Shown one piece after another: positions 1-57,100 of a DNA stretch of 64,000 nucleotides (position 1 is its first letter; each line of letters begins with the position of its first letter). A program made the position numbers and the translations under genes. This DNA comes from Streptococcus parasuis (lineage in GTDB: Bacteria; Bacillota; Bacilli; Lactobacillales; Streptococcaceae): contig NZ_AP024276.1 in the NCBI RefSeq assembly GCF_021654455.1, positions 496,001 through 560,000 of the forward strand, read 5' to 3'. The notes beneath the pieces are model-generated. The model saw nothing but the letters and a program-made list of their open reading frames with translations, was not told the origin of the DNA and made no database searches.

Positions 1-448
1 GAACAAATTGAAATGATAGAATCAAAGCGCCAATAGATTCTATTGCTAATGTAAAACCGAAGGCAGATTTGATAAAGCTACGAAAGTGCTTGGTATCAGA
101 ACGAGATAAGGCTTCTTGGAGCGTAGCCATATTCATAAAATCCATCTTTCGACCACCACGGAGAGCAAACAAACCAATGAAACCCATAAGACTAAGTCCA
201 CCGATTTGAATCAACAACATACAGATAATCTGTCCAAAGGTAGAATATGATTCGGAGACAGCTTGAGTGAACAGGCCTGTCACACAGACCATAGAAACAG
301 CTGTAAAAAGATGATCCCAATAGGTGGCGACGGAGCTATCAGCTTGCGAAATAGGTAAGCTTAGTAAGATGGAACCTACCAAAATCACGAATAGAAAGCT
401 AAACATAATTCGTTGACTTGGAGTCAGTTTGATAGATAAAAAAGACAT
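1..448 (-). CDS. ktrB: TrkH/KtrB family potassium uptake protein (partial, C-terminus off the window)
   Basis: The minus-strand reading frame opens at an ATG at 448-446 behind an AGGGAA ribosome binding site and stays open to the window edge, giving about 149 residues. The translation starts MSFLSIKLTPSQRIMF and has a hydrophobic helix, the loop DHLFTAVSMVCVTGLF and a second helix. The VTGL element matches the first selectivity-filter loop of the Trk/Ktr/HKT family. Such proteins form the membrane pore of a potassium (sometimes sodium-coupled) uptake system with a cytoplasmic TrkA/KtrA subunit, which is not in this window. An extended -10 (TGC TACAAT on the minus strand, near 481-489) lies just upstream. 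The family call is solid; KtrB rather than TrkH is inferred. Confidence 0.85.
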   Translation of the reverse strand, partial: MSFLSIKLTPSQRIMFSFLFVILVGSILLSLPISQADSSVATYWDHLFTAVSMVCVTGLFTQAVSESYSTFGQIICMLLIQIGGLSLMGFIGLFALRGGRKMDFMNMATLQEALSRSDTKHFRSFIKSAFGFTLAIESIGALILSFQFV

Positions 449-663
449 GATATTCCCTTTTGATAATTAAATATGAAGCTATTGTAGCACAAATAGTTGA
501 AAAAGGTAAGAAATAATGAATTAAAATGTTTATGAAATTATCAAGAAAATCAAGGGATTTTATAACCTGATGAATACCAGTTTTGTAAAGGGTTACATGC
601 AGAAAATTCAGACGATAGATTATCGATTATTCTGCTAAAATAGTAATAATAGGCCGCTTCATA
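449..663. other. Intergenic region with a probable ktrB promoter
   Basis: No convincing gene is present. On the minus strand an extended -10 (TGC then TACAAT, plus coordinates 481-489) sits about 33 bp before the ktrB start. The remainder is AT-rich, and I see no coding frame with a ribosome binding site. Confidence 0.4.
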
Positions 664-698
664 ACAAAAAAAGTCAATTCATTTTGTGAGCTGACTTT
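664..698 (-). terminator. Rho-independent terminator for eetB
   Basis: Read on the minus strand, AAAGTCA pairs with TGACTTT around a 15-nt loop and is followed by a run of seven Ts. It lies about 100 bp past the eetB stop. Confidence 0.65.
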
Positions 699-798
699 GT
701 ATCATATTAATCGAATCTGATTATCAAGTAATTGAATATATACTATTAGCTAATCTATATGCATTAGATTTTTTGTATTCAGATTAAAAAGAAGAGAG

Positions 799-1341
799 CT
801 ATTTCCACTCAGCTAATATTTTATAGTGATAGTAACGAAGAGGACCCACTTTTTCAAGCAAGTAAGTGGCGGCCAATCCTACCAAAAATCCAGAAAGTAT
901 TCCGCTAAAAGAGAGTATCGGAAGGTAGTTCAATACATAAAAAGAGCGAGCGATGGTAGCGAAAACAATCAATTGACCGACGTTGTGCATCATACCTCCC
1001 AGTATTGAAATGCCAATTGGGCTGACCCGACGAGGTCCGAGTTGTTTTGCAGATAACATTACAATATAGCTTAGAGTCACTCCTGCGAAACTATAGAGAA
1101 AAGTGGAGAAAGTACCACCTAGAAAAGTTGAAATAAGTAAGCGTAACGAAACCACTTTTACACTATCTTTCGCAGGGAGTGTAAATATTGCAATCAAGCT
1201 GATGAGGTTGCCAAGGCCTAGTTTAGCGCCAGGGGCAAAAGAGAAAGGTGTAGGGATTAATCGTTCAACTACCGAAATTACGACAGCTTGTGCAGCTAAC
1301 ATCGTAATAAAATTTAAGGTTTTACGTTTGGAATTCATCAT
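799..1341 (-). CDS. eetB: EetB-like membrane protein (Gx transporter / heptaprenyl diphosphate synthase component I family)
   Basis: A 180-residue, very hydrophobic protein with about five membrane segments. It carries the motifs common to the Gx transporter family: an N-terminal PTPFSFAPGAKLGLGN stretch and a central GxxLGGMMHNxGQ-like segment (here SILGGMMHNVGQLIVF). The family is often annotated as heptaprenyl diphosphate synthase subunit I. In the Listeria flavin-based EET locus the homologue is EetB, a membrane partner of EetA. Here it is divergent from ndh2 with about 180 bp between them, and eetA lies at the far end of the same locus. The EET role is inferred from this context. The ribosome binding site is weak, and the second Met of the MM start could be used. 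Confidence 0.82.
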   Translation of the reverse strand: MMNSKRKTLNFITMLAAQAVVISVVERLIPTPFSFAPGAKLGLGNLISLIAIFTLPAKDSVKVVSLRLLISTFLGGTFSTFLYSFAGVTLSYIVMLSAKQLGPRRVSPIGISILGGMMHNVGQLIVFATIARSFYVLNYLPILSFSGILSGFLVGLAATYLLEKVGPLRYYHYKILAEWK

Positions 1342-1521
1342 TGACTTTTGAAATATTCTTTCTTGGCATTATTTTCTTACTAGTTATCTTACATTTTTTT
1401 TCGTTACCATGCAAGTGTGCAGATATACCACTAATTATTGAAAAACGCTTGAAATGTATAAGATATTAAGATATAATGATTTTGTTATAAATTGTTGCTA
1501 TTTTCACAAGGAGGATTAATT

Positions 1522-3414
1522 GTGACGAAAAATATTGTGATTGTCGGTGCTGGCTACGCAGGGATTGCAGCAGCTCGACTATTAGGGAAAACGTTTAAGA
1601 AAAACAAAGATGTAAGCGTTACCTTGATTGATAAAAACTCTTTCCATACTTACATGACAGAGTTGCATGAAGTGGCTGCAGGACGTGTGGAAGCTAATGC
1701 GATTAAGTATGACTTACAACGAATCTTTAAAAAATATCCAAAGGTTCAGTTGGTAACAGATAAAGTTGTAGAAATTGACTACGATAAGAAACAAGTCGTT
1801 GCTGAACACCAAACCTTGGCATTTGATTATTTGCTTCTTTCTATGGGTGGTGAGGCGAATGACTTTGGTGTCAAAGGTGTCAAAGAACATGGTTTCACTT
1901 TATGGTCAATTGAGGCAGCTGAACGTTTGCATGATCACATGATTGATGCTTGCTACCGTGCCATGCGTGAACATGATGAAGCAAAACGACGTGCCCTTCT
2001 GACCTTTACAGTTATCGGTGCTGGCTTCACAGGTATTGAGATGATCGGTGAGTTGATTGACTGGGTACCGATTTTGGCGCGTGAGTTCAAGTTGGATCCA
2101 AAAGAATTCTCACTTAAGGTTGTTGAGGCAACGCCAAATATCTTGGCTATGGTTACTGAAAAAGAGCAAGTCAAGGCTCGCAAATACCTTGAGAAAAAAG
2201 GTGTTGAATTGGTTCTTGGCGATGGTGTAGCAAGTGTACAAGAAGATAGCTTAACATTGGCATCTGGCCGTCAAATTCAAACCTACACCTCTATTTGGAC
2301 TGCAGGTGTTCAAGCAAATTCTGATGCTAGTGAATTCGGTATTGAAAAAGCGCGTGCAGGTCGCCTAATTGCCAATGAATTCATGGAAGCCAAAGGCAAA
2401 GAAAATGTCTATGTGGCTGGTGACTTGGTTTACTTTGAAGAATCAGAAGGAAAACCAACCCCTCAAATCGTTCAAGCAGCTGAACAAACTGGTCATACTG
2501 CAGCAAGCAATATCATTGCAGCGATCAACGGCGGAGAAAAGCACAGTTATAAAGGCAAGTATGATGGTTTTATGGTATCTATCGGATCACGCTATGGTGT
2601 AGCATTCTTGATGGATAAGTACCATATGTCAGGGTTCTTTGCGATGGCTGTAAAACATATGGTCAACTTACTTTATTTCTTTACCATTCGCAGTTTCTTC
2701 TACATGGGATCCTATGTACGTCATGAATTCTTTGATATTAAGAATAAACGAAATATTTTTGGTGGTCATACATCTGGTAAAGGAAACCTTTTATGGACTG
2801 TGCCAATGCGCCTGTTATATGGCTCTGTTTGGCTCTATGAAGGGGTGAAAAAAGCATTTGGATTGTTCGGAACAACCTCATGGTTTGGGGATCAAGTTGT
2901 TTTCCCATTCCCATGGTTAGCTGATCCTGTATCTGGAGCGTCAGCAGCTGAAACAGTATCAAGCGCTTCACAAGCAGCTACTGCAGTAGCAGAAGCAGCT
3001 CATCCAATCTTTGGGTTGAGTTATGCTTATGGTGAGACACCAATGACGGTATTAGAAAAAATGCCTAACTGGTTTGCATCTATCATGGAATTCTTAATGC
3101 CAAACCAAGAAGTTGCACTATTTATGCAAAAATTCATGACTATTGCAGAAATTGGGATTGGTTTAGCCTTGATTGCAGGTGCATTTGTATGGATTGTCTC
3201 TGCTGCAACAGTCGCTTTGGTTGTGATGTTTAGTTTATCAGGAATGTTCTACTGGGTAAATATTTGGTTTATCCCAGCAGCAATCTCATTAATGAATGGT
3301 TCTGGTAGAGCATTTGGATTAGATTATTGGATTATGCCATGGTTAGGTCGCTTCCTTGATAAGACCATTTATGGGAAGCCCAAGCATATATACAGGATCA
3401 AGGATAATAAATAA
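1522..3414 (+). CDS. ndh2: Type II NADH dehydrogenase with C-terminal membrane domain (EET-type Ndh2)
   Basis: Single-subunit, non-proton-pumping NADH:quinone oxidoreductase. The start is GTG at 1522, behind AAGGAGG with 7-nt spacing. The FAD-binding GAGYAG lies near residues 8-13 and the NAD-binding GAGFTG near 165-172, followed by the family's AGD(L)VY segment around residue 300. Ordinary NDH-2 enzymes are about 400 residues. This one is 630, and the additional C-terminal part contains hydrophobic helices (about 370-400 and 540-610), the arrangement seen in Ndh2 proteins of extracellular electron transfer loci. It would pass electrons from cytosolic NADH to a membrane demethylmenaquinone pool. 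It is followed after 19 bp by the prenyl synthase gene dmkB. Confidence 0.92.
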   Translation: MTKNIVIVGAGYAGIAAARLLGKTFKKNKDVSVTLIDKNSFHTYMTELHEVAAGRVEANAIKYDLQRIFKKYPKVQLVTDKVVEIDYDKKQVVAEHQTLAFDYLLLSMGGEANDFGVKGVKEHGFTLWSIEAAERLHDHMIDACYRAMREHDEAKRRALLTFTVIGAGFTGIEMIGELIDWVPILAREFKLDPKEFSLKVVEATPNILAMVTEKEQVKARKYLEKKGVELVLGDGVASVQEDSLTLASGRQIQTYTSIWTAGVQANSDASEFGIEKARAGRLIANEFMEAKGKENVYVAGDLVYFEESEGKPTPQIVQAAEQTGHTAASNIIAAINGGEKHSYKGKYDGFMVSIGSRYGVAFLMDKYHMSGFFAMAVKHMVNLLYFFTIRSFFYMGSYVRHEFFDIKNKRNIFGGHTSGKGNLLWTVPMRLLYGSVWLYEGVKKAFGLFGTTSWFGDQVVFPFPWLADPVSGASAAETVSSASQAATAVAEAAHPIFGLSYAYGETPMTVLEKMPNWFASIMEFLMPNQEVALFMQKFMTIAEIGIGLALIAGAFVWIVSAATVALVVMFSLSGMFYWVNIWFIPAAISLMNGSGRAFGLDYWIMPWLGRFLDKTIYGKPKHIYRIKDNK

Positions 3415-3433
3415 AGGAAATTTTAACAGTTAA

Positions 3434-4423
3434 GTGGTACATCAAATTTGGGATGCCCACCCAGAAATAAAGAGAGGGCTTGAAGAGGTTAAAACCATCA
3501 TCTTATCAGAGATGATGGTTCTGCATCCAGCAGTAAAAAATAAGATTGTTGAGTATGTAGAGGCACCAGGTAAATACCTGCGTGCTGGCCTTTGTTTGCT
3601 CTTTGCACAGATGAAGGAAGGACAGATTAGCCAATCAAAGTTGTATTTTGCTGCGTATCTTGAAGTTTTACATCTAGCAACCCTTATACATGATGACGTG
3701 ATTGATGGGGCAGATAAAAGACGGGGAGTTATTACGGCCCATCAGCAATTTTCAAATCGGATTGCAATCTATACTGGTGATTATCTTTTGGCCTATTCAG
3801 GTCGTTTGTTGGCCCAGGGATTACGGTTACAAGATCTATCTCAGGAAGATATGAATTTAGGCAATGATAAACTCATGGAAACCATTTTAAGAGGAGAGCT
3901 GTCTCAATTAATGAATCAGTTTGATACAGAAATGACTATGAAAGCCTATCTCAAACAAATACAAGGGAAGACAGCATTTCTCTTTGGTTTGTCATGCCAA
4001 TTGGGAGCTTTTGTGCCAGGACAGTCTAAGAAAGAAAGTGGACTAGCTTTTCGAACAGGTCAAGCTCTTGGTATGGCATTCCAGATCCGAGATGATTTAA
4101 TTGATTACCAATTGGATGTTAGAGTATCTGGTAAGCCTCAATTGCAGGATCTTTAAAATGGTATTTATACTGCCCCATTGCTACTTGCTCTAAGAGAAAA
4201 AAAGGAAATTCGTCAGGATTTAAAAGCGTATATTGAAAATCCACAGACTGAAGCTCTGGATCAGTTGGCAATAAAAATCAAGGCTACGGGTGCTATTGAA
4301 AAAACGGAAAGCTTGATTTCTTCCTACCTTATTAAATGCAACAATTTTGCAAATAGAATGCAAATTTCAGAAAAAGAATCATTTGATCGAATCATAGAAA
4401 ACGTATTCAAAAATTACTTCTAA
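3434..4423 (+). pseudogene. dmkB: Polyprenyl diphosphate synthase (DmkB-like) interrupted by an in-frame TAA
   Basis: Trans-prenyl chain synthase that would make the side chain of demethylmenaquinone. The start is GTG at 3434 behind AAGGAAA. The first aspartate-rich motif (HDDVID) lies near residues 86-91 and the second (RDDLID) near 219-224. At codon 241 (4154-4156) the frame reads TAA and continues without a frameshift into NGIYTAPLLLALREKK and a further 80 or so residues to 4423. In homologues this position lies in a conserved DLxxGxxTLP segment, so the stop replaces one residue. CAA to TAA, a single C-to-T change, would explain it. The 240-residue product keeps both metal-binding motifs but loses the C-terminal helices. 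Sequencing error, readthrough or true loss cannot be separated here. Confidence 0.85.
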
Positions 4424-4517
4424 TTTGTGATTTTTTTGTCAATTTTGACTAGACAGATAGAAGAAAAAGTTATATCATTATAGTATAGTTATTAACATAA
4501 AACAAAGGAGTTTTATC

Positions 4518-5021
4518 ATGAAAAACACAAAATGGATGTTGAAAAGTTTGTTAGTTCTCGGCGCTGCTGTAACTTTGGTAGCATGTGGTGCTAAAGAAGA
4601 ATCATCTACAACAACATCATCAACAGCAGAAACAACTACTTCTGAATCTTCTACATCAGCTTGGAAAGATGGAACTTACAAAGCTGAGTCAGGATTTGAT
4701 GAACGCGGATGGAAATTTGTTCATGAAATTACAATTAAAGACGGAAAAATCACTGCTTCAACTGCTGACTATGAAGACAAAGATGGTAATTTGAAATCTG
4801 AAAATGCTGAATACAATACAACAATGAAAGAAAAATCAGGTATATCTTCTGCAGAAGCTACAGATAAACTTGATGAAGAACTTCTTGCAGCACAAAGTGC
4901 AGATGTAGAAGTGGTTTCAGGTGCAACCCATACTTCTGAAAACTTCAAAAAATCAACTGAAGCACTTTTGAAAGCTGCTGAAGAAGGAAAAACAGATACT
5001 ATCACACTTACATTTGAGTAA
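4518..5021 (+). CDS. pplA: FMN-binding domain lipoprotein (PplA-like)
   Basis: A 167-residue lipoprotein. The signal peptide ends in the lipobox LVACG (Cys near residue 23), followed by a Ser/Thr/Glu-rich linker (about 25-48) and one FMN-binding domain. The domain contains VVSGATHTS near residues 133-141. In this family the Thr of the SGAT motif accepts FMN covalently from an ApbE flavin transferase, and apbE is the next gene. In Listeria, PplA is the surface electron carrier of EET and has two such domains; here there is one. A ribosome binding site AAAGGAG lies 8 bp before the ATG, and a strong terminator follows, so this gene may be more highly expressed than its neighbours. The electron-carrier role is inferred from family and locus. 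Confidence 0.87.
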   Translation: MKNTKWMLKSLLVLGAAVTLVACGAKEESSTTTSSTAETTTSESSTSAWKDGTYKAESGFDERGWKFVHEITIKDGKITASTADYEDKDGNLKSENAEYNTTMKEKSGISSAEATDKLDEELLAAQSADVEVVSGATHTSENFKKSTEALLKAAEEGKTDTITLTFE

Positions 5022-5041
5022 CATCTGTCAGTAAATTATAG

Positions 5042-5075
5042 GCACAGTAGCCCTAGGCTGGCTACTGTGTTTTTC
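5042..5075 (+). terminator. Terminator between pplA and apbE
   Basis: CACAGTAGCC pairs with GGCTACTGTG around a 7-nt loop and is followed by TTTTTC. It probably limits transcription into apbE and makes pplA the more abundant message. Confidence 0.85.
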
Positions 5076-5094
5076 TATTAGAAAGGAAGAGTTA

Positions 5095-6144
5095 ATGAAA
5101 AAGGGAATCCGTTTATTTGTAATTTGTATTGCCACATTTCTCCTAGTAGCATGCGGAGCTAAGAAAACGGAAACGTTACCTGTCGTAAAAACTCCATTGA
5201 CTCGTAGCGAAAGTCTACTACATACAGTAGTGCAATTGAGTATCTATCACGATGATCAAGAGGAAGTGATGGATGAGGCAATCGCCTATATCAAGGAAAT
5301 GGAAAGTTTGCTGTCAACGAATTTGGAGGGATCAGATGTTTATCGGATCAATCAGGCGGCTGGAAAAGAAGCTGTCAAAGTAGATGATCGGACTTTTGAA
5401 GTAATTGAGAAGGCTATCGAGACCAGTGAAGAGAGTGATGGTTTATTTGATATTTCAATCGGTGCTGTGACTAATCTCTGGAAAATTGGGGATGAAGATG
5501 CACGTAAACCCAGTGATGAAGAAATACAGGCTGCTTTGCCATATATAAACTACAAGGATATCACTCTGGATAAGGAAAACCAAACAGTCTATATCAAGAA
5601 AGGAATGACCTTAGAACTTGGTGCCATTTCAAAAGGATATATTGCGGATAAAGTGAGAGAGTTGTTTGAAAGTAAAGGGATTACTACAGCCATTATCAAC
5701 CTTGGTGGGAATGTTGTGGTCATGGGTGACTCACCGAAAACACAAAAGGGTTGGAACGTTGGCGTTCAAGATCCGGATCAAGTTCGAGGGGTAACGGTTG
5801 GCTCCGTTCCTGAGACGCACGATTCAGTTGTTACTTCTGGTATCTATGAACGGTATATTGAGGTAGATGGTGTAAAATATCACCATATTTTAGATCCTAA
5901 AACAGGCTATCCTGTAGAGAATGACATTTCAGGAGTCACAGTTTTTTCAAAAACCTCGGTTCAAGGAGATGCCTTGTCTACAACTCTTTTCTTGCTCGGT
6001 GTTGAAAAAGGACTTGCATTCATCAACCAAATGGATGGAGTAGAAGCGGTCTTTATTGATAAGGAGCACGGTGTTCATCTGAGCGATGGACTTAAAGATA
6101 GCTTTGAATTAACGAATGAGGAGTATCATCTTGTCAGTGAATAA
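5095..6144 (+). CDS. apbE: FAD:protein FMN transferase, lipoprotein form (ApbE/FmnB)
   Basis: A 349-residue extracytoplasmic flavin transferase. The signal peptide ends in the lipobox LLVACG, so the enzyme should be anchored outside the membrane. ApbE family features visible are LGAISKGYIAD (near residue 179), the INLGGNV segment, HHILDPKTGYP (about 262-272) and GDALSTTLFLLG near 298-309. ApbE enzymes split FAD and attach FMN to a Thr in FMN-binding domains; the PplA-like lipoprotein immediately upstream is the obvious substrate. The homologue in Listeria EET is FmnB. The ribosome binding site is GAAAGGAAG. The 3' end overlaps the prenyltransferase gene. Confidence 0.92.
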   Translation: MKKGIRLFVICIATFLLVACGAKKTETLPVVKTPLTRSESLLHTVVQLSIYHDDQEEVMDEAIAYIKEMESLLSTNLEGSDVYRINQAAGKEAVKVDDRTFEVIEKAIETSEESDGLFDISIGAVTNLWKIGDEDARKPSDEEIQAALPYINYKDITLDKENQTVYIKKGMTLELGAISKGYIADKVRELFESKGITTAIINLGGNVVVMGDSPKTQKGWNVGVQDPDQVRGVTVGSVPETHDSVVTSGIYERYIEVDGVKYHHILDPKTGYPVENDISGVTVFSKTSVQGDALSTTLFLLGVEKGLAFINQMDGVEAVFIDKEHGVHLSDGLKDSFELTNEEYHLVSE

Positions 6145-7099
6145 ATCAAAGAACGGGCTCAGTTTACCCGTATTTCTAGAATTTGTCGAAATCAAAACAA
6201 AGGTCGCCAGTGTCTTTCCTATGACACTGGGGCTTCTATGGGCAGCTTATCGCTATCAGACTTTTAATTGGTTGAATACGCTGTTGTTTGTCCTGGCAGT
6301 ACTGAGTTTTGATATGTGCACGACCGCAATAAACAATAGTATGGATTATCATAAGGCAAAAGATGAAGCCTATCGTCAAGAAAGTAATGTGATTGGGAAG
6401 TTTTCGCTTGATTTTCAGCAAATGATTGGTATTGTTTTTACCTTACTTATTTTTTCCATCCTGATTTCTTTATTGCTTGTCTGGCGTACGAGCTGGCTCC
6501 TTTTGCCGATGGGAGCCTTATGTTTCTTGATTGGAATCTTTTACACATTTGGTCCGATTCCTTTGTCAAGAATGCCACTGGGTGAAGTTTTCTCGGGCGT
6601 AACCATGGGATTTGGCATCTTCTTTCTTGCTGTATTTATTCAGCAACCAGATTTGCTATTGATGAGCCAAGTAAGTGGTCAGTGGATGACCTTGCAATTC
6701 TCTTGGACAAGGATCCTCGAAATTGTTTTTATGTCCATTCCTTTGGTAAGCCTGATTGCTAATATCATGTTGGCGAACAACACTTGTGATTTGGAAGAAG
6801 ATATTCGCAACCATCGCTACACCTTGGTTTACTATATTGGCAAGAAAAATGCTTTGAAACTATACTTTGTCTTGGCAAGTTTACCATGGTTGCTGTGGCT
6901 GTTGTACTGTTTGACTGGTTTCTTGCCATTCTGGGCATTGATTGGTTTGCTTGGTCTAGTGCCTGCTTATCATAGTTTGGAACGATTCTTGAAAAAGCAA
7001 GTAAAGCGAGAAACTTTTATTGAAGCAGTAAAAAGTTTTGTTCTCTTTTCAGGAGTTCATGTTCTTACGTTACTAGTAGCCGTTATATTTAATAAATAA
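6131..7099 (+). CDS. menA: UbiA-family prenyltransferase, MenA/DmkA-like
   Basis: Integral membrane enzyme that would attach a polyprenyl chain to 1,4-dihydroxy-2-naphthoate, giving demethylmenaquinone. The two Asp-rich motifs of UbiA enzymes are present: NNSMDYHKAKD near residues 60-70 and NNTCDLEEDIRNHRYTL near 215-231. Eight or nine hydrophobic helices are apparent. I chose TTG at 6131 because GAGGAG (6118-6123) sits 7 nt upstream; an in-frame ATG at 6116 would place the binding site inside the gene, and GTG at 6137 is another option. The gene overlaps apbE. No other menaquinone biosynthesis gene is in the window, so the naphthoate may come from outside or from genes elsewhere. In EET loci this gene is called dmkA. 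Confidence 0.9.
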   Translation: MSVNKSKNGLSLPVFLEFVEIKTKVASVFPMTLGLLWAAYRYQTFNWLNTLLFVLAVLSFDMCTTAINNSMDYHKAKDEAYRQESNVIGKFSLDFQQMIGIVFTLLIFSILISLLLVWRTSWLLLPMGALCFLIGIFYTFGPIPLSRMPLGEVFSGVTMGFGIFFLAVFIQQPDLLLMSQVSGQWMTLQFSWTRILEIVFMSIPLVSLIANIMLANNTCDLEEDIRNHRYTLVYYIGKKNALKLYFVLASLPWLLWLLYCLTGFLPFWALIGLLGLVPAYHSLERFLKKQVKRETFIEAVKSFVLFSGVHVLTLLVAVIFNK

Positions 7100-7127
7100 G
7101 ACACAGCCTATTGACTGTGTCTTATTT
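7094..7127. terminator. Bidirectional terminator between menA and eetA
   Basis: A 13-bp stem (AAATAAGACACAG with CTGTGTCTTATTT) around an 8-nt loop separates two convergent genes. Its A-rich and T-rich flanks suit both strands. The menA stop codon lies inside the left arm. Confidence 0.85.
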
Positions 7128-7128
7128 A

Positions 7129-7557
7129 TTATAATGGTAAAATGAGTTCTTCTTCGTCAGAGTTGTCCCCACCGACAGCTTTAATTTCAATCAGGAGATT
7201 GTGTGGCAGACAAACGGAAAGTTCACCTGGTTGGCTAATCCAGCCAGTCATCACAGCAATCTGGTCAGGACTATTGTCCTCTTTGTCACGAATCCGTTCG
7301 CCATCGACTTCAATAATATTGTATTGTCCTTCGTTTGGATAATAGGTAATTTCTTGATGAGGAGTATCTTTTGATAATTCAAATTGATCGACGACCTCAC
7401 CGTTTATCCTAACATATGCAATGATTTTAGTTTCATTTGACTGTGACGTTAAATGCATGTATGTAAAAATCGCTGGGACAAAGGATAATAGAAGGGTCAG
7501 TCCAATTAATAGATAGTCAAATAATTTGAATTGTTTGAGAATGGATTTGAATGTCAT
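7129..7557 (-). CDS. eetA: NusG domain II-type membrane-anchored protein (EetA-like)
   Basis: About 142 residues: one N-terminal membrane helix (roughly residues 12-35) followed by an extracytoplasmic domain. That domain matches the NusG_II pattern: YVRINGEVV, an NIIEVDGERIR strand pair, then MTGWISQPGELSVCLPHNL leading into a final strand. In the Listeria EET locus this is EetA, which works with EetB in flavin-based electron export. The usual Cys of the CPD motif before the GWIS segment is Ser here (NSPDQ), whereas the later CLPH Cys is kept. The start could be ATG at 7557 or TTG at 7563; neither has a strong ribosome binding site. It is convergent with menA. Confidence 0.8.
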   Translation of the reverse strand: MTFKSILKQFKLFDYLLIGLTLLLSFVPAIFTYMHLTSQSNETKIIAYVRINGEVVDQFELSKDTPHQEITYYPNEGQYNIIEVDGERIRDKEDNSPDQIAVMTGWISQPGELSVCLPHNLLIEIKAVGGDNSDEEELILPL

Positions 7558-7609
7558 ATACAATCTATTGTATAGAAAAAAACTTACTTTGTAAAATGTT
7601 GGACACAGA

Positions 7610-7957
7610 TTACTTTTTCAATTGATTATAGAAGAGTAGGATGGCTAACATTCCCCAAAATCCAGCTTGAAGTGGCTGTATTTTCCCAGTGAAAAATACA
7701 ATGGAGAAAGTTAAGGCAAAACCTGCAAAGAGAAACCAGAGGAGTGGTTTATGATAAAGATTGATAGCTTTTTGGACAGCATTTGATTCTGGACTGGTAG
7801 TTTGCCAGTCACTATTTAAAATTGGAAGTATAGTGAACAGTAAGATAAAGATTGGTGGGTTGTCTCCAGTCAGGTAGCTATGTATATATAAGCTAAAAAT
7901 CGCTGTATAGAAGAGAACAATCAAAGTAAGAATGAGTTTCGGTTTGTCAACGTTCAT
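7610..7957 (-). CDS. Small four-helix membrane protein, function unknown
   Basis: 115 residues, starting at ATG 7957 behind AAGGAGA. A longer frame exists upstream, but the binding site and the overlap with the preceding gene favour this start. There are four hydrophobic segments, with a short hydrophilic stretch in the middle (about residues 48-68) and a basic C-terminus (NQLKK). It resembles the protein encoded just upstream in length, helix spacing and C-terminal pattern, suggesting tandem duplication. It is the last gene of the XRE-led operon and overlaps the preceding gene by 11 bp. I do not recognise a family. Confidence 0.7.
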   Translation of the reverse strand: MNVDKPKLILTLIVLFYTAIFSLYIHSYLTGDNPPIFILLFTILPILNSDWQTTSPESNAVQKAINLYHKPLLWFLFAGFALTFSIVFFTGKIQPLQAGFWGMLAILLFYNQLKK

Positions 7958-8291
7958 CCGGCTTCTCCTTTTTGAAATACAGTCGATAAAGAATAGCAAC
8001 AGCAAAGCCAGCAGGAAGGATGAGGACAAGTGGTTTGACATGCCCTAGCCAAATACCCACGGAATAGGTCAAGGTCATGGCAAACAGGGCAAAGATGGTT
8101 TGGATGATAAAGTAGCGTTTTCCTTCTGCGGTTTTATAGGATTTGATCATCTGAATGGTCGGTAGCATGAGCAAGAAGGAACCGCTAATCGGCTCATTGA
8201 CGATATAAGAGTAGATGAAGAGGGCAGAAAGTAAACTATAAAAGAGAACGAAAAATCGACAGGTTTGTTTTGGAGTAGGAGGTTTATTCAT
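7947..8291 (-). CDS. Small four-helix membrane protein, function unknown
   Basis: 114 residues with four predicted membrane helices, a short polar loop after helix 2 (SYKTAEGKR) and a charged tail (YFKKEKPDER). It starts 12 bp after the DUF3278-like gene ends, with an AGGAGC binding site. It looks paralogous to the next gene downstream. The position in a repressor-led operon of membrane proteins is the only clue to function. Confidence 0.72.
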   Translation of the reverse strand: MNKPPTPKQTCRFFVLFYSLLSALFIYSYIVNEPISGSFLLMLPTIQMIKSYKTAEGKRYFIIQTIFALFAMTLTYSVGIWLGHVKPLVLILPAGFAVAILYRLYFKKEKPDER

Positions 8292-8303
8292 GGTGTTAGC
8301 TCC

Positions 8304-9386
8304 TTATTTTTTCTTGGCAGAATCTGCTTCCAGTTTTTGCAGATAGGCAATGGCAGACAGGGCTAGACTGGCAAAGAGGCCCATCATGCCACCGAAGAGG
8401 AGGGATTTTACGTGGAAGATAGAATCCAGTAGGGGAAGATTGAGGCTAAAGAGGTCTGCCAGACCAGCAAAGAGGCTAGAGAGCAGGGCAACTCCCAGTC
8501 CCCAAACGAGTGGATTGAGGGTCTGTCCATGTCTTTCCTCAGGGCTGAGTTCGTCTATGTCATATTGGGGAAGGTCAGCATGGAGAGTACGCATATTAAC
8601 GATACCAATTAGGATAATACTGAAGAAGGTAATGATCATTGGATAGTAGGTGGCAACCTCTACAGGATAGCGGATAGCTAGGAAGTAGGCGACAGCATTT
8701 CCAAGAGCAAGGAAGAAGAAGTGATAGATAAGGGCCTGTCCGCCGATAGCATCAGCCTCGGTCCGTCGGTATTCATCTAAAGGACCGCGGATACCATAAA
8801 AACGTTTAATCATATTTTTGATCCACTTGGGTTCTTCTTTGGAAATAGCAGAGCTGACAGTTAGGTTTTCTGCCTTTTTCATGCGCTTGCGAAGTGTGAT
8901 TTCGATATAGATTCCCATGAAAACACCGACTAGACAGGCTGCTAGGAATTTTCGGAAGTCAAATAAATGGTCTAGTGGATTGAGTCCCTCCATCCAGGCA
9001 TTAAATCCCGTGTTCCAGATATACATACCACAGGTGAAATAGAGGGCGAATTTGATACTTGCTCCCTTGAATTTCTTTTGTTCCTTGTTAGTCAGTTCTT
9101 CTATATCTAAACTGTCCAGTTGACTGTGACGCAGTTTAAACATGATGTAGGTACTAGTCGCTAGATAGCTTAGGAGCAGGGCAACGGGGTAGCCAAATGC
9201 AACAACTTCTGGGAAGCGTTTGGATAGGGCAAGTGCCAGTAAGGTAAGAGCCATGGTGCCCCAAAAGAGCAGGATAAAGCAGGTATTGCCCAGTTGGAAG
9301 GCTTCTTTTTGGCGAAATTCATCCAAGGGACCTGTGATACCGTAAAAACGTTTGGTCAATTTTTCTCGAAAGGTTTCCTTTTTCAT
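8304..9386 (-). CDS. Tandem-duplicated DUF3278-like membrane protein
   Basis: 360 residues made of two homologous halves. Each half opens with the motif RFYGIxGPLDE(F/Y)R (about residues 12-25 and again near 190-204), followed by four hydrophobic helices with a cytoplasmic acidic loop (LDIEEL in half one, YDIDEL in half two). I recall the RFYGI-GPLDEYR signature from DUF3278, a streptococcal and lactococcal family of unknown function usually encoded beside a small XRE regulator; a profile search should confirm this. Single-domain family members are about half this length, so this is an internal duplication or fusion. It is translated from AAGGAGC, 10 bp after the preceding gene. Confidence 0.75.
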   Translation of the reverse strand: MKKETFREKLTKRFYGITGPLDEFRQKEAFQLGNTCFILLFWGTMALTLLALALSKRFPEVVAFGYPVALLLSYLATSTYIMFKLRHSQLDSLDIEELTNKEQKKFKGASIKFALYFTCGMYIWNTGFNAWMEGLNPLDHLFDFRKFLAACLVGVFMGIYIEITLRKRMKKAENLTVSSAISKEEPKWIKNMIKRFYGIRGPLDEYRRTEADAIGGQALIYHFFFLALGNAVAYFLAIRYPVEVATYYPMIITFFSIILIGIVNMRTLHADLPQYDIDELSPEERHGQTLNPLVWGLGVALLSSLFAGLADLFSLNLPLLDSIFHVKSLLFGGMMGLFASLALSAIAYLQKLEADSAKKK

Positions 9387-9396
9387 AAGCAGCTCC

Positions 9397-9597
9397 TTAT
9401 TTTTGATCGATCAATGGTAAGATGTAAACAAAGCCTAAGAAGTAGATGGTTCCAGTAATCAGCAATTGTAGCCAAAATTTTGCTTGGCTGATGATATGCA
9501 TGATGTCTGCTCCGCTATTGCCCCAAAGCTGAAAGAGGACAAAGAGCGGGATAAAAATAAGGGTAGAGATAAGAGCTTGGCGTGTATTCTTATTCAT
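9397..9597 (-). CDS. Small two-helix membrane protein, function unknown
   Basis: 66 residues with two hydrophobic segments (about 8-26 and 42-61) separated by a short polar loop. It lies 14 bp after the XRE regulator and 10 bp before the DUF3278-like gene, in an operon arrangement. The ribosome binding site is AAAGGAA. The family is not recognised. Confidence 0.65.
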   Translation of the reverse strand: MNKNTRQALISTLIFIPLFVLFQLWGNSGADIMHIISQAKFWLQLLITGTIYFLGFVYILPLIDQK

Positions 9598-9611
9598 GGG
9601 AGTATTCCTTT

Positions 9612-9800
9612 CTATTCATTCCAAAAGAGACTATTGAGATCGGTTTGTAAAGCTTTGGCTAGGTTGATGCAGAGGTCTAGCGAAGGGTTGTATTTGTTGT
9701 TTTCAATCATGTTGATGGTTTGCCTGGATACGCCGATGGCCTTGGCCAAATCTAGCTGGGAAATACCTTGCAATAGTCGGTAGTCTTTGACTCGGTTCAT
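9612..9800 (-). CDS. Small XRE/Cro-CI family transcriptional regulator
   Basis: 62 residues consisting almost entirely of one helix-turn-helix domain: ISQLDLAKAIGVSRQTIN near residues 13-30, followed by IENNKYNPSLDLCINLAKAL. Proteins of this size bind DNA as dimers and often repress their own operon. The start ATG at 9800 has AAGGAGG behind it. Its promoter has its -35 hexamer inside one of three matching 18-bp palindromes upstream, so autoregulation is likely. It is the first of five minus-strand genes, the other four encoding membrane proteins. Confidence 0.88.
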   Translation of the reverse strand: MNRVKDYRLLQGISQLDLAKAIGVSRQTINMIENNKYNPSLDLCINLAKALQTDLNSLFWNE

Positions 9801-48275: not shown

Positions 48276-48380
48276 ACGATTTCATTTATTTACCTCAAAC
48301 CTGTTGTGAGTTAAGTGAATGAATCATCATTCACCATGCTGTTTGCTGAGCTAGACTCCGGGCAGTGTGGCTATTTTTTT
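48276..48380 (+). ncRNA. Candidate CiaR-dependent small RNA (csRNA-like)
   Basis: The transcript predicted from the upstream promoter is about 105 nt. It has a hairpin CTCA/TGAG (48295-48310 area), a perfect 8-bp hairpin GTGAATGA-ATCA-TCATTCAC (48316-48335), then CCATGCTG pairing with CAGTGTGG (two G-U pairs) and a terminal T-run 48374-48380. No open reading frame of note is inside. Size, terminator and promoter type fit the csRNAs of other streptococci, which pair with the translation start region of target mRNAs. Known csRNA sequences could not be aligned here. Confidence 0.6.
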
Positions 48381-49019: not shown

Positions 49020-49075
49020 TAGCTAAATCATCTTAAGGTCTTGCATTTGCAAGGCTTTTTTGGTATGATGGTAGT

Positions 49076-49280
49076 GTCTTCAGGGCAGGGTGTGATTCCC
49101 GACCGGCAGTGAAAAATCGGCTGTTTTTACTAGGTTTTTAAAGTAAATCTACGATGGATTAAGAGGCTATCGAGACGAGCGAGTAAAGGCTTAGAAAAAA
49201 ACAATCTATTGGAAGTCTGCGAGCGAAAGCTGATGTGGTGCAATTCCACAACCGACAGTATAGTCTGGATGGGAGAAGAC
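49076..49280 (+). promoter_or_regulatory. FMN riboswitch (RFN element) upstream of ribU
   Basis: Closing helix GTCTTC (49076-49081) with GAAGAC (49275-49280). Conserved pieces in order: AGGGCAGGGTG, GATTCCCGACCGGCAGTG, TCTGCGAGCGAAAGCTGATG, TGGTGCAATTCCACA, ACCGACAGTATAGTCTGGAT, GGGAGAAGAC. About 150 nt lie between the GACCGGC and CCGACAG segments, against roughly 87 in the B. subtilis ribD element, so one arm is much enlarged. It would reduce ribU expression when FMN is plentiful. Confidence 0.93.
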
Positions 49281-49346
49281 GAAGTGCACGGTTTTTTAGC
49301 CTGCTCTTTTGGACTTCTTCAATTTTCAATAATTGGAGGAACCTTT

Positions 49347-49904
49347 ATGACAAACACACGCAAAATGACGATTATCGCCATTCTTTCAGCAGTATCTTTT
49401 CTGCTCATGTACTTGAAATTTCCCCTTATTCCAACGGCGAATTTCTTAGAGGTGGATTTTTCACTAGTACCAATCTTGTTTGGTCTGTTAATTTTAGATA
49501 CCAAGGCTAGTTTTGCTATCCTTTTGGTTCGAACCTTTCTCAAGCTGATTTTAAATAATCAGGGACCGTCCACAATCATCGGCTTGCCGATGAATATTGC
49601 AGCTATGTCAGTGTTTATTTTGGCGGTGGCCTATTTCTGGAAAAATGATCAAACGATAAAAAATTATATTAAAACCGCAGTCATTGCAACCATAGGTTCA
49701 ACGTTAATGATGTTGCTATTGAATTATGTTTATGCAGTGCCAGTCTATGCTGCATTTGCAAACTTTGATATTAAAGAAATTTTAGGCTTGTGGAATTACC
49801 TATTGATGATGGTATTGCCATTTAATCTGTTACAAGGGGTTGTCCTATCAGCGGTATTTTACATTTGCCAAAAAGCTGCACAGCCGATTTTAAAGAAAGT
49901 TTAA
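49347..49904 (+). CDS. ribU: Riboflavin ECF transporter substrate-binding subunit RibU
   Basis: 185 residues and six membrane helices. The S component of an energy-coupling factor transporter. The riboflavin-type features are KFPLIPTANFLEVDFSLVP (about 25-43), a LRT FLKLILN segment and GIPMNI-like GLPMNI. It works with the shared EcfA-EcfA'-EcfT module, which is not in this window. MTNTRKM at 49347 is the start (GGAGGAACC precedes it); the longer frame runs through the riboswitch. Control is by the upstream FMN riboswitch. It could also serve flavin supply for the EET genes at the left end. Confidence 0.94.
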   Translation: MTNTRKMTIIAILSAVSFLLMYLKFPLIPTANFLEVDFSLVPILFGLLILDTKASFAILLVRTFLKLILNNQGPSTIIGLPMNIAAMSVFILAVAYFWKNDQTIKNYIKTAVIATIGSTLMMLLLNYVYAVPVYAAFANFDIKEILGLWNYLLMMVLPFNLLQGVVLSAVFYICQKAAQPILKKV

Positions 49905-51199: not shown

Positions 51200-54100
51200 A
51201 TGGATAAGAAAAATCTTTCCAAGACGGACCAGAAAAAATGGTATGCACCACAGCAAAGATTTTCGATTCGTAAGTACCATTTTGGTGCGGCCAGTGTATT
51301 ACTCGGTGTTGCACTTGCTTTGACGGGGGGCGCCGAAGCATCAGCAACTACGACTGATACGAGTGCATCCACAACACCAAGTTCAGCGGTTGAAACGACA
51401 AGTTCAACTACGGACTCAACAATGCCTACAAGTGACGCAACAACAGCTACGTCTACAAGCGAGACAACTTCATCGTCTGCGACTGAAGAAGTTTCAACTA
51501 CTACAACTGCTACTGAGCGTGTAGCAACAATTGAATATACTGTTGAGTATCAAGATGAATTTGGGGAAGTTGTAGCCTCTACTGTTAAGTCAATTGAAAC
51601 AAAAACAACTGATAGAACTGCTATTGCAATTGTTACTGAAACAGCAACAGTTCCTGCAGATTATGAACTTGTTGCGAACGAATTGACAACCTCCACTACA
51701 GGAGTTGTAGAAGGTGCTAATACAAAAGTTGTCTTCAAAGTTGTGAAAAAAGTAGTAGCAGACACTACAAGCACAACTACAACTACTAGCGTAACTGATA
51801 CTGCAAGTACATCTACATCATCTAGCACAGCAGTTGCACCAACAACTGCAACTGCAACTGCTTCTGCTCCAAAGGTAGCAGTACCAACAACTGTTGAAGA
51901 AGCAAAAGTTGTTCTTGAACAAATTGTTTCAGAAGCAGAAGTATTGGCTAATGAAGGTAACCGCATTGTGGCTACTGATACAACAACTGATACAGGTGCT
52001 TTGAAGGCTGCAGCAGTTGCAACAAAATTGGCCGTTACAGATGCAACGTCTGTATTACAAGATACAGTTGCTACTTTAGATGCACTGAATACACAAATCA
52101 ATGCAGTTCGTACAAACGTAGAAGCTCTAGTCTTAGAATTGCGTAGATTTTTAGGTACAGATGTTATTGAAATCTCTTTGAATAATACTCTTTCAACTTT
52201 GCAAGTCGGTGAAGGTCTAGGTGTTCTTGTTGAAGCTTCAACTACTGCGACACCTTCTATGGATGATGCGAATGGAGCAGGAATTAAAACACATACTCTT
52301 AGAACAGGTGTGGCTGCAACTTCTCAAGCAGGTTGGTACACATTTGAAAGCTATGATTTCTATTCATATAATGCAAACCAGCCAACTGTATATATTAACG
52401 GTACCGCAATTCCTGCCTATATCCGATACTCATTAGATTCAAATGCTAATACATCAACAATCTTAGCTGAAGTGGTAAGTACTACCAACGGTAACGTATT
52501 GGAAACTCATACAATTGAGCAAGGAGCGAGTGTAACACTAACGTATCCTCAAACAGTAAATCCTGAAAATGAAACTGTTACTATTACTTATGATACTACC
52601 TTGGAAAATGATGGTAGTACACAAGGTATGTTAGTACTTACAGCCGCTAAAGATGGCAGAGTAGTGGACTATAGTACTATAATTGTTCCTGATTATCAGA
52701 TCAATACAACTAGATATGTTGTGGAAGATGGGACAGTATTAGCGACTTATAGCCTTCAAACCATTGCGGGTCAACCAGTAACCCCTTCAGGACAGCGTGA
52801 ATTTGCTGGTTACACCTATAAAACGACAACTAAAGAGGTTGTTCAAGGAGGCTTACCAGCAGGAACTGTTTATATGCCTGGTAAGGTTGATCAAAGTACA
52901 GTTCATTATAAAGCAATTCGTAAAGTTATTTCGAATACTCAGACCGTAACAGAGTATTATTTCTTGGATCCTACCTACACAGGTCCAGTTGATTGGAACG
53001 GAATTGATACTACAGGATTTATCAAACTCATCGAGACCAGTCCGTTAGTTTATACAGATGGTAAAACGTATGACTATAACAAGAGCTCGACAATTTATGC
53101 TCCTTATACATACGATGAAGAATCTGGCTATATGGTCTTTAAAGAAAGTTATTTTAATGAACAAGGCTCTAAGTACCGAGTTGTAGCACAATGGTCTGGA
53201 GGCACAACAGAAGGTACATATGGTAAAATTTTTATTGGTACTCAAGTATATACAACTGCTCAAGAATTGGGTGACAATGAGTTTAAATGGAGAGGTGTTA
53301 CTGATAAATTTGATAATAAGGGATATGTTCCATTCGGTATTCAACAAAATTTGAGAAATGCCACAATTGCCACAGCGTTCGCAACAACGCATATTTATAC
53401 ACCAGTTCCACAGGAAGCTATCATCCGTTACCAAGTTGAAGGTGCGACAGACTTCTTGGAAGATTCAGGTACCTTGACAGGTAACCCAGGTACAGACATC
53501 ACTTACTCCACTGAAAATACCATTAACAAGTATAAGAAATTGGGTTATGAGCTTGTATCTGACAATTTCACTACTGACGCTGGTCAAGACTATGACTACG
53601 ATACAGCTGTGAAGCAAGAATTCCTTGTTGTCATCAAGCCTCGTGTCGTTGACGTTCCTAAAGGTGTTGTACCTGGGGAACCAGTGGATCCAACAGATCC
53701 TAACTCACCAGTCTGGCCAGATACAGTAAACAATCTGGAAACAACCCAAGAAGTAACGCGTACTGTTGAGTACAAGTATGAAGATGGAACACCAGTCCGT
53801 GTAGATGCCGCAGGCAATGTCTTGCCAAAAGGTTCTACTGAAGGGACTCCATTTGTTAAGACTGAAACAGTAAGCTTCACTCGCCCAGCTCAAGTCAACC
53901 TTGTAACTGGTGAAGTGACTTATGGAGATTGGGTGGCAGATACGACAGATACTCTTCAGGGTAATGTCCTTCCAGAAGTTCCAGGCTACAGTGCAAGTCG
54001 TACGACTCTTGAAGGTGCTGAGGCACCAATGACAGAAACAGTAAAAGATAAGACTGTTACTGCAACTGATGCAGACATTAATGAAGTGGTTTACTTCAAA

Positions 54101-57100
54101 GAAAATCCTAAGTATGGTGACGTAGTTGTAAATTATGTTAATACAGACGGAAAAGTGATTGCAACTCCAGTGGTGGATACTAATGATGCTCTTGTAGGAA
54201 CAGATTACTCCACTGCTGATCGTGTACCAGAGAAGATTGTTGAAGATGAAACAGGTGATGTCTACTACTACAAAGAAGTCAAAGCTGAAGATGCAGCTAA
54301 AGAAACTGGTAAAGTAGTAGAGGGCACAACAGAAGTTACTTATGTGTATGAAAAAGCTGGTAACGTTGTTGTTAACTACATTACAGAAGATGGTAAAGTC
54401 ATCAAGACACCTGTTAATGACGAAACAAACGCAAAACCAGATAGTCCATACGACACAACTGATAACAAGCCAACAGAAATCGTTACAGAAGATGGTTCAC
54501 GTTATGTCTTGATTCCGTCTAAGACAATTGGTACAGAAAACGGTACAGTTGAAGGTGGTAAGCCAACAGAAATCACTTATGTATATAAGAAAGTTGCGAA
54601 CTGGGTTCCACAAATTCCAGGTGTTCCAGAAGGACAAGAACCAAAAGTTCCATATCCATTTGATCCAAACAACCCAGACGTACCAGTAACACCAAATCCA
54701 GGTACAGTGATTCCAAACGTTCCAGGCTACACACCAGTAGATCCTAAGGACAACACACCACTGAAACCAGTTGATCCAAATGATCCAGGTAAAGGTTATG
54801 TGCCACCAACACCAGATGAAACTGGAAAAGATACACCAATTCCTTACGTTCAAAATGGTAATGTTGTGGTTAACTACGTAACAGAAGATGGTACAGTTAT
54901 TAAATCACCAGTTCAAGATGAAACAAACGTTCCTGCTGGTAAGTCTTATGACACAACAGATAACAAACCAACAGAAATTGTTACAGAAGACGGTTCACGT
55001 TATGTATTGGTTCCATCTAAGACAATTGGTACAGAAAATGGTACAGTTGAAGGTGGTAAGACAACAGAAATCACTTATGTGTATAATAAGGTTGCGAACT
55101 GGATTCCAGAAATTCCAGGTGTTCCAGAAAACGAACGCCCAGTAGTTCCATATCCGTTTGATCCAAACAACCCAGACGTACCAGTAACACCAAATCCAGG
55201 TACAGTGATTCCAAACGTTCCAGGCTACACACCAGTAGATCCTAAGGACAATACACCATTGAAACCAGTAGATCCAAACGATCCAGGTAAAGGTTATGTG
55301 CCACCAACACCAGATGAAACTGGAAAAGATACACCAATTCCTTACGTTCAAAATGGTAATGTTGTGGTTAACTACGTAACAGAAGATGGTACAGTTATCA
55401 AAGCACCAGTTCAAGATGAAACAAACGTTCCTGCTGGTAAGTCTTATGACACAACAGATAACAAACCAACAGAAATTGTTACAGAAGACGGTTCACGTTA
55501 TGTATTGGTTCCATCTAAGACAATTGGTACAGAAAATGGTACAGTTGAAGGTGGTAAGACAACAGAAATCACTTATGTGTATAAGAAGGTTGCGAACTGG
55601 ATTCCAGAAATTCCAGGTGTTCCAGAAAACGAACGCCCAGTAGTTCCATATCCGTTTGATCCAAACAACCCAGACGTACCAGTAACACCAAATCCAGGTA
55701 CAGTGATTCCAAACGTTCCAGGCTACACACCAGTAGATCCTAAGGACAATACACCATTGAAACCAGTAGATCCAAACGATCCAGGTAAAGGTTATGTGCC
55801 ACCAACACCAGATGAAACTGGAAAAGATACACCAATTCCTTACGTTCAAAATGGTAATGTTGTGGTTAACTACGTAACAGAAGATGGTACAGTTATCAAA
55901 GTACCAGTTCAAGATGAAACAAACGTTCCTGCTGGTAAGTCTTATGACACAACAGATAACAAACCAACAGAAATTGTTACAGAAGACGGTTCACGTTATG
56001 TATTGGTTCCATCTAAGACAATTGGTACAGAAAATGGTACAGTTGAAGGTGGTAAGACAACAGAAATCACTTATGTGTATAAGAAGGTTGCGAACTGGAT
56101 TCCAGAAATTCCAGGTGTTCCAGAAAACGAACGCCCAGTAGTTCCATATCCGTTTGATCCAAACAACCCAGACGTACCAGTAACACCAAATCCAGGTACA
56201 GTGATTCCAAACGTTCCAGGCTACACACCAGTAGATCCTAAGGACAATACACCATTGAAACCAGTAGATCCAAACGATCCAGGTAAAGGTTATGTGCCAC
56301 CAACACCAGATGAAACTGGAAAAGATACACCAATTCCTTACGTTCAAAATGGTAATGTTGTGGTTAACTACGTAACAGAAGATGGTACAGTTATCAAAGT
56401 ACCAGTTCAAGATGAAACAAACGTTCCTGCTGGTAAGTCTTATGACACAACAGATAACAAACCAACAGAAATTGTTACAGAAGACGGTTCACGTTATGTA
56501 TTGGTTCCATCTAAGACAATTGGTACAGAAAATGGTACAGTTGAAGGTGGTAAGACAACAGAAATCACTTATGTGTATAAGAAGGTTGCGAACTGGATTC
56601 CAGAAATTCCAGGTGTTCCAGAAAACGAACGCCCAGTAGTTCCATATCCGTTTGATCCAAACAACCCAGACGTACCAGTAACACCAAATCCAGGTACAGT
56701 GATTCCAAACGTTCCAGGCTACACACCAGTAGATCCTAAGGACAATACACCATTGAAACCAGTAGATCCAAACGATCCAGGTAAAGGTTATGTGCCACCA
56801 ACACCAGATGAAACTGGAAAAGATACACCAATTCCTTACGTTCAAAATGGTAATGTTGTGGTTAACTACGTAACAGAAGATGGTACAGTTATCAAAGTAC
56901 CAGTTCAAGATGAAACAAACGTTCCTGCTGGTAAGTCTTATGACACAACAGATAACAAACCAACAGAAATTGTTACAGAAGACGGTTCACGTTATGTATT
57001 GGTTCCATCTAAGACAATTGGTACAGAAAATGGTACAGTTGAAGGTGGTAAGACAACAGAAATCACTTATGTGTATAAGAAGGTTGCGAACTGGATTCCA

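Follow-up and report, generated by a model that had tools for sequence, protein, structure and literature searches.

A probable flavin-based extracellular electron transfer locus with a single-FMN PplA in Streptococcus parasuis

A locus of about 7 kb near the start of a 64,000-nucleotide stretch of the Streptococcus parasuis genome is probably a streptococcal member of the known family of flavin-based extracellular electron transfer systems (EET, also FLEET). As read from its genes, it would scavenge the quinone precursor 1,4-dihydroxy-2-naphthoic acid (DHNA), and it combines a PplA lipoprotein bearing a single flavin mononucleotide (FMN) domain with the lack of an fmnA gene in the locus. The stretch, here called the window, covers positions 496,001 to 560,000 of a genome assembled as a single contig of 2,197,342 bases (NCBI RefSeq assembly GCF_021654455.1, contig NZ_AP024276.1). 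A first-pass annotation had placed eetB, ndh2, dmkB, pplA, fmnB, dmkA and eetA within about 7 kb and had likened them to the flavin-based EET gene set of Listeria. Both statements hold, as all seven families were matched by profile search, far beyond chance and at about the coordinates first assigned, and the likeness to Listeria is borne out by the family matches and by the closest structural match of FmnB. Three amendments apply to that first interpretation: the cell probably obtains its quinone precursor from outside, the dedicated subunit for export of flavin adenine dinucleotide (FAD) is not encoded in the locus, and dmkB is interrupted in the window strain.

Results

The two outermost genes, eetB (799..1341) and eetA (7129..7563), lie at opposite ends of the locus and both on the minus strand, in agreement with the initial description, and the remaining genes are on the plus strand. 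The eetB product resembles the S components of energy-coupling factor (ECF) transporters and matched PF07456 above the cut-off (159.9 bits, E 5.6e-47). The eetA product, with an ATG at 7557, was identified as a NusG domain II protein by PF07009, also above the cut-off (89.9 bits, E 1.4e-25), which settles the doubt first attached to this minus-strand protein; it has one N-terminal hydrophobic helix and matches PDB entry 2kpp (E 3.9e-23). The gene ndh2 (1522..3414), which likely starts with the GTG at 1522 preceded by GGAGG at 1510-1514, encodes a type II NADH dehydrogenase with a hydrophobic C-terminal part. Its product matched Pfam Pyr_redox_2 (E 5.2e-40) and type II NADH dehydrogenases of the PDB (best E 1.6e-63, across residues 5-398), has a single hydrophobic stretch at residues 549-567 as judged by hydropathy, and shows a weak C-terminal match to DoxX (24 bits, cut-off 23.6). 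The fmnB gene (5095..6144) encodes an FAD:protein FMN transferase of the ApbE family (PF02424, 303.9 bits, E 1.3e-90), a lipoprotein with the lipobox LVAC, whose best PDB match (E 3.1e-98) is 7esa, the FmnB of Listeria monocytogenes with FAD (PMC8906456). The dmkA product is a DHNA polyprenyltransferase of the MenA type (6116..7099; UbiA E 3.3e-23) that matched PRK13387 above the cut-off (333.4 bits, cut-off 316) from residue 16 onward, and its true start probably lies slightly downstream of 6116. With an NADH dehydrogenase that has a membrane helix by hydropathy inside a flavinylation-associated gene cluster, the locus falls under the operational definition of FLEET given in PMC8238504.

The lipoprotein that would carry the flavin is the 167-residue product of pplA (4518..5021), which has one FMN domain, the lipobox LVAC and one flavinylation motif, SGATHT. 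It matched FMN_bind (PF04205) above the cut-off (28.2 bits, cut-off 22, E 3e-6), so that the family on which its first identification hinged is confirmed, and it matched PDB entry 3o6u (E 1.2e-18). The NCBIfam model NF041941 was matched with E 3.3e-37 and 128 bits (cut-off 325), only over model positions 6-174 of 302. No protein from a sample of 247 Streptococcus genomes exceeded the curated cut-off of this model, and a PplA of the two-domain kind was not found by this measure. Exactly one [ST]GA[ST] motif is present in each of the 41 streptococcal PplA rows, which come from 40 genomes. One survey genome, G013 (locus L225; contig C2, 265941-267236), has two adjacent pplA copies, possibly a way to regain two FMN carriers. 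In the window genome PplA gives the only FMN_bind match above the cut-off. A second ApbE protein (L221:6460-7488; genome from about 688,460) lies far from the locus beside NrnA and a flavodoxin; given these neighbours, and PplA as the sole FMN_bind match above the cut-off, it was rejected as part of the system.

That PplA acts mainly as the source of a cAD1-like signal-peptide pheromone, with the redox genes incidental, seems very improbable. The idea draws on the Enterococcus cAD1 precursor, a PplA orthologue, and on the discussion of a cad-apbE neighbourhood in PMC7074142, where Streptococcus ictaluri appears in a figure legend. However, the flavinylation motif of the mature domain is retained in all 41 rows, pplA tracks ndh2 and dmkB across genomes, and it is the signal-peptide tail that differs among species.

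Genes of the locus travel together. EetA was found in 42 of the 247 genomes (about a sixth), and the co-occurrence expected among relatives is seen: Ndh2 (E 1e-60 or better) in 41 genomes, strong PplA matches (E 1.3e-34 or better) in 41 and strong DmkB matches (49% identity or more) in 40, all of them only inside the 42. Ndh2 is missing in G229, PplA in G213, and DmkB in both. At E 0.001 NF041941 is unspecific (183 of the 247 genomes); at the threshold used for PplA the next match has E 1.4e-9. Weaker polyprenyl synthase matches (35-42% identity) occur in thirteen genomes without EetA. A few Ndh2 frames are anomalous, with a 134-residue fragment in G213 (74% complete), two pieces in G122, and in G126 one counted TAA beside an open frame of 635 residues. 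EetB, FmnB and DmkA were looked for in the fetched locus stretches only. There, 33 of the 42 genomes, that of the window among them, have all seven genes on a single stretch in the order eetB (-), ndh2, dmkB, pplA, fmnB, dmkA (+), eetA (-). Among these 33, eetA lies several kb off in G004 and G186, ndh2 is in two frames in G122, and pplA is the doubled gene of G013. Among the other nine, the loci of G057, G072 and G180 are split over two places, those of G010 and G173 run into the end of a contig, in G229 neither ndh2 nor dmkB is present between eetB and pplA, and G117 (the L006 contig) has six genes together and eetA on another contig; the G213 stretch was not fetched for this count. In G150 (L004, L249), whose stretch is cut by a contig end, no eetB match was found in the 10 kb searched upstream of ndh2. 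A chance run of unrelated genes is ruled out by co-occurrence and gene order. The remark that eetA and eetB are usually adjacent is true across bacteria, where they are colocalised in 3,328 of 4,214 genomes (PMC9973259), and fails in the streptococcal lineage, where they are apart as a rule.

In the Ndh2 tree the streptococcal rows fall into a single clade (SH-aLRT 99, by a quick method), and the nearest rows outside the genus are Abiotrophia and then Desemzia, both on long branches. The count of changes on the tree came to 2 and not 1, since one S. suis row, L054, carried no label. The tree left out exact duplicates, G122, G213 and the window's own Ndh2, which is 97% identical to the row of Streptococcus suis HCJ31 (L003), the closest named relative among 80 loci kept. 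This single clade and its nearest outside rows fit one origin in the genus with later losses or transfers within it. The window DNA from 1 to 7111 is 94.8% identical to G075 and about 93.3% to L003, and the window is grouped with the S. suis group. Between the window and G075 the ratio of nonsynonymous to synonymous substitution rates (dN/dS, NG86 method) was 0.03 for ndh2, 0.05 for dmkA, 0.08 for eetA, 0.14 for fmnB, 0.16 for eetB, 0.23 for pplA, and 0.10 and 0.25 for the two parts of dmkB; most other printed pairs were below 0.32. The values are averages over each pair of sequences and leave the dmkB stop undated. Because the order is complete in 33 of 42 genomes, Ndh2 forms one clade and dN/dS is low, the locus type is not a relic, so the alternative first raised, a remnant of an electron export system, is not supported for the locus type and has in its favour the interruption of dmkB in this strain.

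That interruption had been missed when the locus was called nearly complete, a description that is right insofar as seven of the eight Listeria EET proteins named in PMC8906456 are present. An in-frame TAA at 4154-4156 ends the 5' part of dmkB (3434..4156, plus strand; PF00348 polyprenyl_synt, E 1.9e-47) after 240 residues, compared with about 330 in relatives. It lies 3' of the second DDxxD motif, so that both motifs are kept. The frame runs on past the stop for about 88 codons (4157..4423), and the piece 4178-4423 matches TIGR02748 at positions 240-312 (E 3.3e-4). Among the 40 Streptococcus genomes with strong DmkB matches, the window genome has one internal TAA and the other 39 have none; the frame of G022 is shorter (301 residues). 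The stop is thus excluded as a lineage-wide feature, and it is the window strain and not the lineage that lacks an intact DmkB. The segment 4157-5021, with the 3' part of dmkB and pplA, is far more divergent than ndh2 (51% and 59% identity to G120, against 95% for ndh2), as if exchanged or fast-evolving.

The stop probably weakens long-chain quinone synthesis in the window strain, which may be impaired. It is conceivable, and in our judgement rather doubtful, that the stop marks the onset of decay of a locus already dead in this strain. The stop has no counterpart in the other 39 strong matches, and loss does occur in the group, in G122 (ndh2), G229 (ndh2 and dmkB), G150 (eetB beside ndh2) and perhaps G022 (DmkB). 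Yet the other six genes are full-length frames with low dN/dS, no second stop was counted in dmkB, and in Lactiplantibacillus plantarum dmkA and dmkB mutants DHNA-dependent EET is still reported (PMC10746273). By analogy with these mutants, EET with soluble DHNA may persist in the window strain despite the stop.

The locus was also described as a full set, which is correct for its seven genes and overlooks the source of the quinone. MenD, the one menaquinone gene surveyed, exceeded its curated cut-off in none of the 247 Streptococcus genomes, compared with 7 of 14 controls. Weaker matches in 238 genomes (70 bits in the window genome, cut-off 244) are presumably other thiamine-diphosphate enzymes. 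CydA was matched in 23 of the 247 genomes, including 11 of the 42 with EetA (in pieces in G107, G125 and G175); there was no CydA match in the window genome or, in all, in 31 of the 42, two of which are incomplete (G006, 86%; G213, 74%), CydA being the sole oxidase or quinone-using enzyme from outside the locus that the survey covered. The MenD and CydA results together suggest that the quinone probably derives from scavenged DHNA and has no part in supplying cytochrome bd. In each of the 23 CydA genomes a polyprenyl synthase was matched that diverges from the EET DmkB (34-42% identity); 12 of these genomes lack the EET locus, and in the 11 with both it is a second polyprenyl synthase match (34-40%). 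The locus was accordingly rejected as part of a cytochrome bd chain, as the CydA genomes have their own polyprenyl synthase match and CydA is unmatched in the window genome. The most likely role of DmkA and DmkB is in an EET chain fed by scavenged DHNA, as in L. plantarum, which is without a complete DHNA pathway and depends on outside DHNA (PMC8837199, PMC10746273).

A role in handling oxygen or redox stress, with Ndh2 and either quinone or PplA passing electrons to oxygen or peroxide and not to iron or another extracellular acceptor, appears unlikely. A non-cytochrome electron sink would help the 31 carriers without a CydA match, and oxygen-terminating EET is the subject of a paper entitled 'Physiological Benefits of Oxygen-Terminating Extracellular Electron Transfer' (PMC9765408). 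However, no gene of the locus points to oxygen chemistry, and ndh2 together with pplA marks the iron-reducing lactic acid bacteria (PMC8837199). Oxygen handling and electron export are, moreover, compatible with one another.

Between eetB and eetA the list of open reading frames holds no gene-sized frame beyond the seven genes, and the locus yielded no fmnA. The window genome has two ECF-T matches, both within other ECF modules: one adjoins two general ECF ATPases, and the other belongs to a module that also has a fused ATPase and an S component of the riboflavin type. When these two ECF-T proteins were compared by tblastn with 266 loci, only their own ECF loci were matched, a search that a divergent ECF-T could escape. 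Five of the 42 EetA genomes (G131, G142, G180, G202 and G219) have a single ECF-T match, and a dedicated FmnA is unlikely there if, as we presume, PF02361 recognises FmnA. A hidden fmnA beside the locus was discarded as well. In other genera, Pfam searches of two Desemzia and five Abiotrophia reading frames flanking the EET genes returned no ECF-T, and the Enterococcus caccae flank was inspected by eye only, in translation. Elsewhere in the window (49072-49904, plus strand) an FMN riboswitch precedes a gene for an ECF S component, which among solved structures is best matched by RibU proteins for riboflavin uptake; judged by these matches, the pair is the putative flavin import side of the same economy.

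As to the surroundings, a terminator-like hairpin lies 3' of pplA (5040..5072, plus strand), and 12 terminator-like sites were found in 600-8000, where 4.2 were expected by shuffling; a promoter scan, with 22 promoter-like sites against 20.6 expected, was uninformative. Beside eetA, the minus strand at 7610-9800 encodes a small helix-turn-helix regulator, a protein matched by DUF3278 in two stretches, and two proteins that are small and hydrophobic. This flank is variable in the S. suis group: G075 lacks DUF3278, and its dmkA and eetA are separated by about 1.4 kb of additional DNA. Farther away, 51200-58099 (plus strand) encodes a YSIRK/LPXTG surface protein of 2,299 residues with repeated mucin-binding (MucBP) domains, and a 23S-methyl RNA motif (48279-48377, plus strand) lies upstream of a reading frame of 201 residues.

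Discussion

From the gene content we infer DHNA scavenging, the course of electron flow, electron export, FAD export and the acceptor. In the proposed scheme, Ndh2 would oxidise NADH and pass the electrons to membrane (demethyl)menaquinone, a quinone that DmkA would make by prenylating DHNA from other microbes with the polyprenyl chain supplied by DmkB. The quinol would then reduce the FMN that FmnB had attached to PplA, the surface lipoprotein, at its SGATHT motif, and PplA in turn would reduce an acceptor outside the cell, for example ferric iron or a soluble shuttle. In Listeria, EetB is the FAD-export S subunit, which binds FAD and exports it with FmnA (PMC9973259). Because no fmnA lies in the streptococcal locus, EetB would supply FAD to FmnB while docked on a general ECF module. 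EetA would be an accessory part, and its deletion is described as without an EET phenotype (PMC9973259).

Several points weigh against this assignment. The PplA match stays below the NCBIfam cut-off, dmkB is interrupted in the window genome, and fmnA is absent from the locus, while in Listeria EcfT does not appear able to take over FAD export from FmnA (PMC9973259). The defects in G229 (ndh2 and dmkB), G122 (ndh2), G150 (eetB) and G022 (DmkB length) mean that parts of the system are dispensable or being lost. Between G075 and G173 dN/dS reaches 0.51 for the 3' part of dmkB and 0.36 for fmnB, based on a small number of changes, and in several pairs dS has reached saturation. The likeness to Listeria is one of family profiles, the single gene-level comparison being that of FmnB through its PDB entry. 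Finally, possession of all FLEET genes does not guarantee activity, as some L. plantarum strains show (PMC8837199). In favour of the assignment, the same study reports that only those lactic acid bacterial species having both ndh2 and pplA reduced iron in a DHNA assay.

It is tentatively conceivable, at somewhat less than even chances, that the whole lineage has an EET chain that runs only on the quinone precursor of others, mostly without cytochrome bd, and with FAD delivered through EetB on a housekeeping ECF module in place of a dedicated FmnA. In that case these streptococci would depend on their community for electron export. If the system works, bacteria of the S. suis group, usually thought of as fermentative, could balance their redox state by electron export when neighbours provide DHNA, and their growth would be tied to the surrounding flora. 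The lineage would also offer a natural test of which FLEET parts are dispensable, given its single-FMN PplA, the lack of fmnA, and damaged or missing dmkB, ndh2 and eetB.

The novelty of the locus is modest. In the open-access literature, as judged from listings, no report of it was found for S. suis with EET or flavinylation or for Streptococcus dysgalactiae with EET; two of the papers found mention S. suis in other connections. The founding paper of the field (Light 2018) reportedly lists a Streptococcus among the carriers. A cad-apbE neighbourhood that includes S. ictaluri is displayed in PMC7074142, and a streptococcal locus has thus been displayed before. Among lactic acid bacteria, the FLEET locus is given as complete in 11 of 38 genera, and Streptococcus agalactiae as showing little or no iron reduction (PMC8837199).

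Compared with the flavin-based EET of Listeria, the window locus has seven of the eight gene families in common and an FmnB that is closest in the PDB to that of Listeria. In contrast, it has no fmnA that could be found, eetA and eetB lie at opposite ends, dmkB is interrupted, PplA has one FMN domain and corresponds to half of the NCBIfam model, and no MenD exceeds the cut-off. DHNA-fed aerobic respiration of Group B Streptococcus, for which cross-feeding is cited in PMC10746273, is similar in its scavenged quinone precursor, with no MenD above the cut-off in the 247 genomes, and differs in that the CydA genomes carry the divergent polyprenyl synthase match, 12 of 23 being without the EET locus. 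The FLEET systems of lactic acid bacteria such as L. plantarum and Enterococcus differ in gene order and share, for L. plantarum, the dependence on outside DHNA and, for the Enterococcus loci, an Ndh2 that is 53-59% identical, whereas the PplA of E. caccae has 309 residues and two FMN_bind stretches in place of the single domain of streptococcal PplA. Abiotrophia defectiva has the same run ndh2-dmkB-pplA-fmnB-dmkA, but its PplA has 281 residues and two motifs, and eetA and eetB were unmatched in the fetched stretch. In Desemzia incerta, eetA lies between ndh2 and dmkB, and PplA, with 161 residues, carries a single motif.

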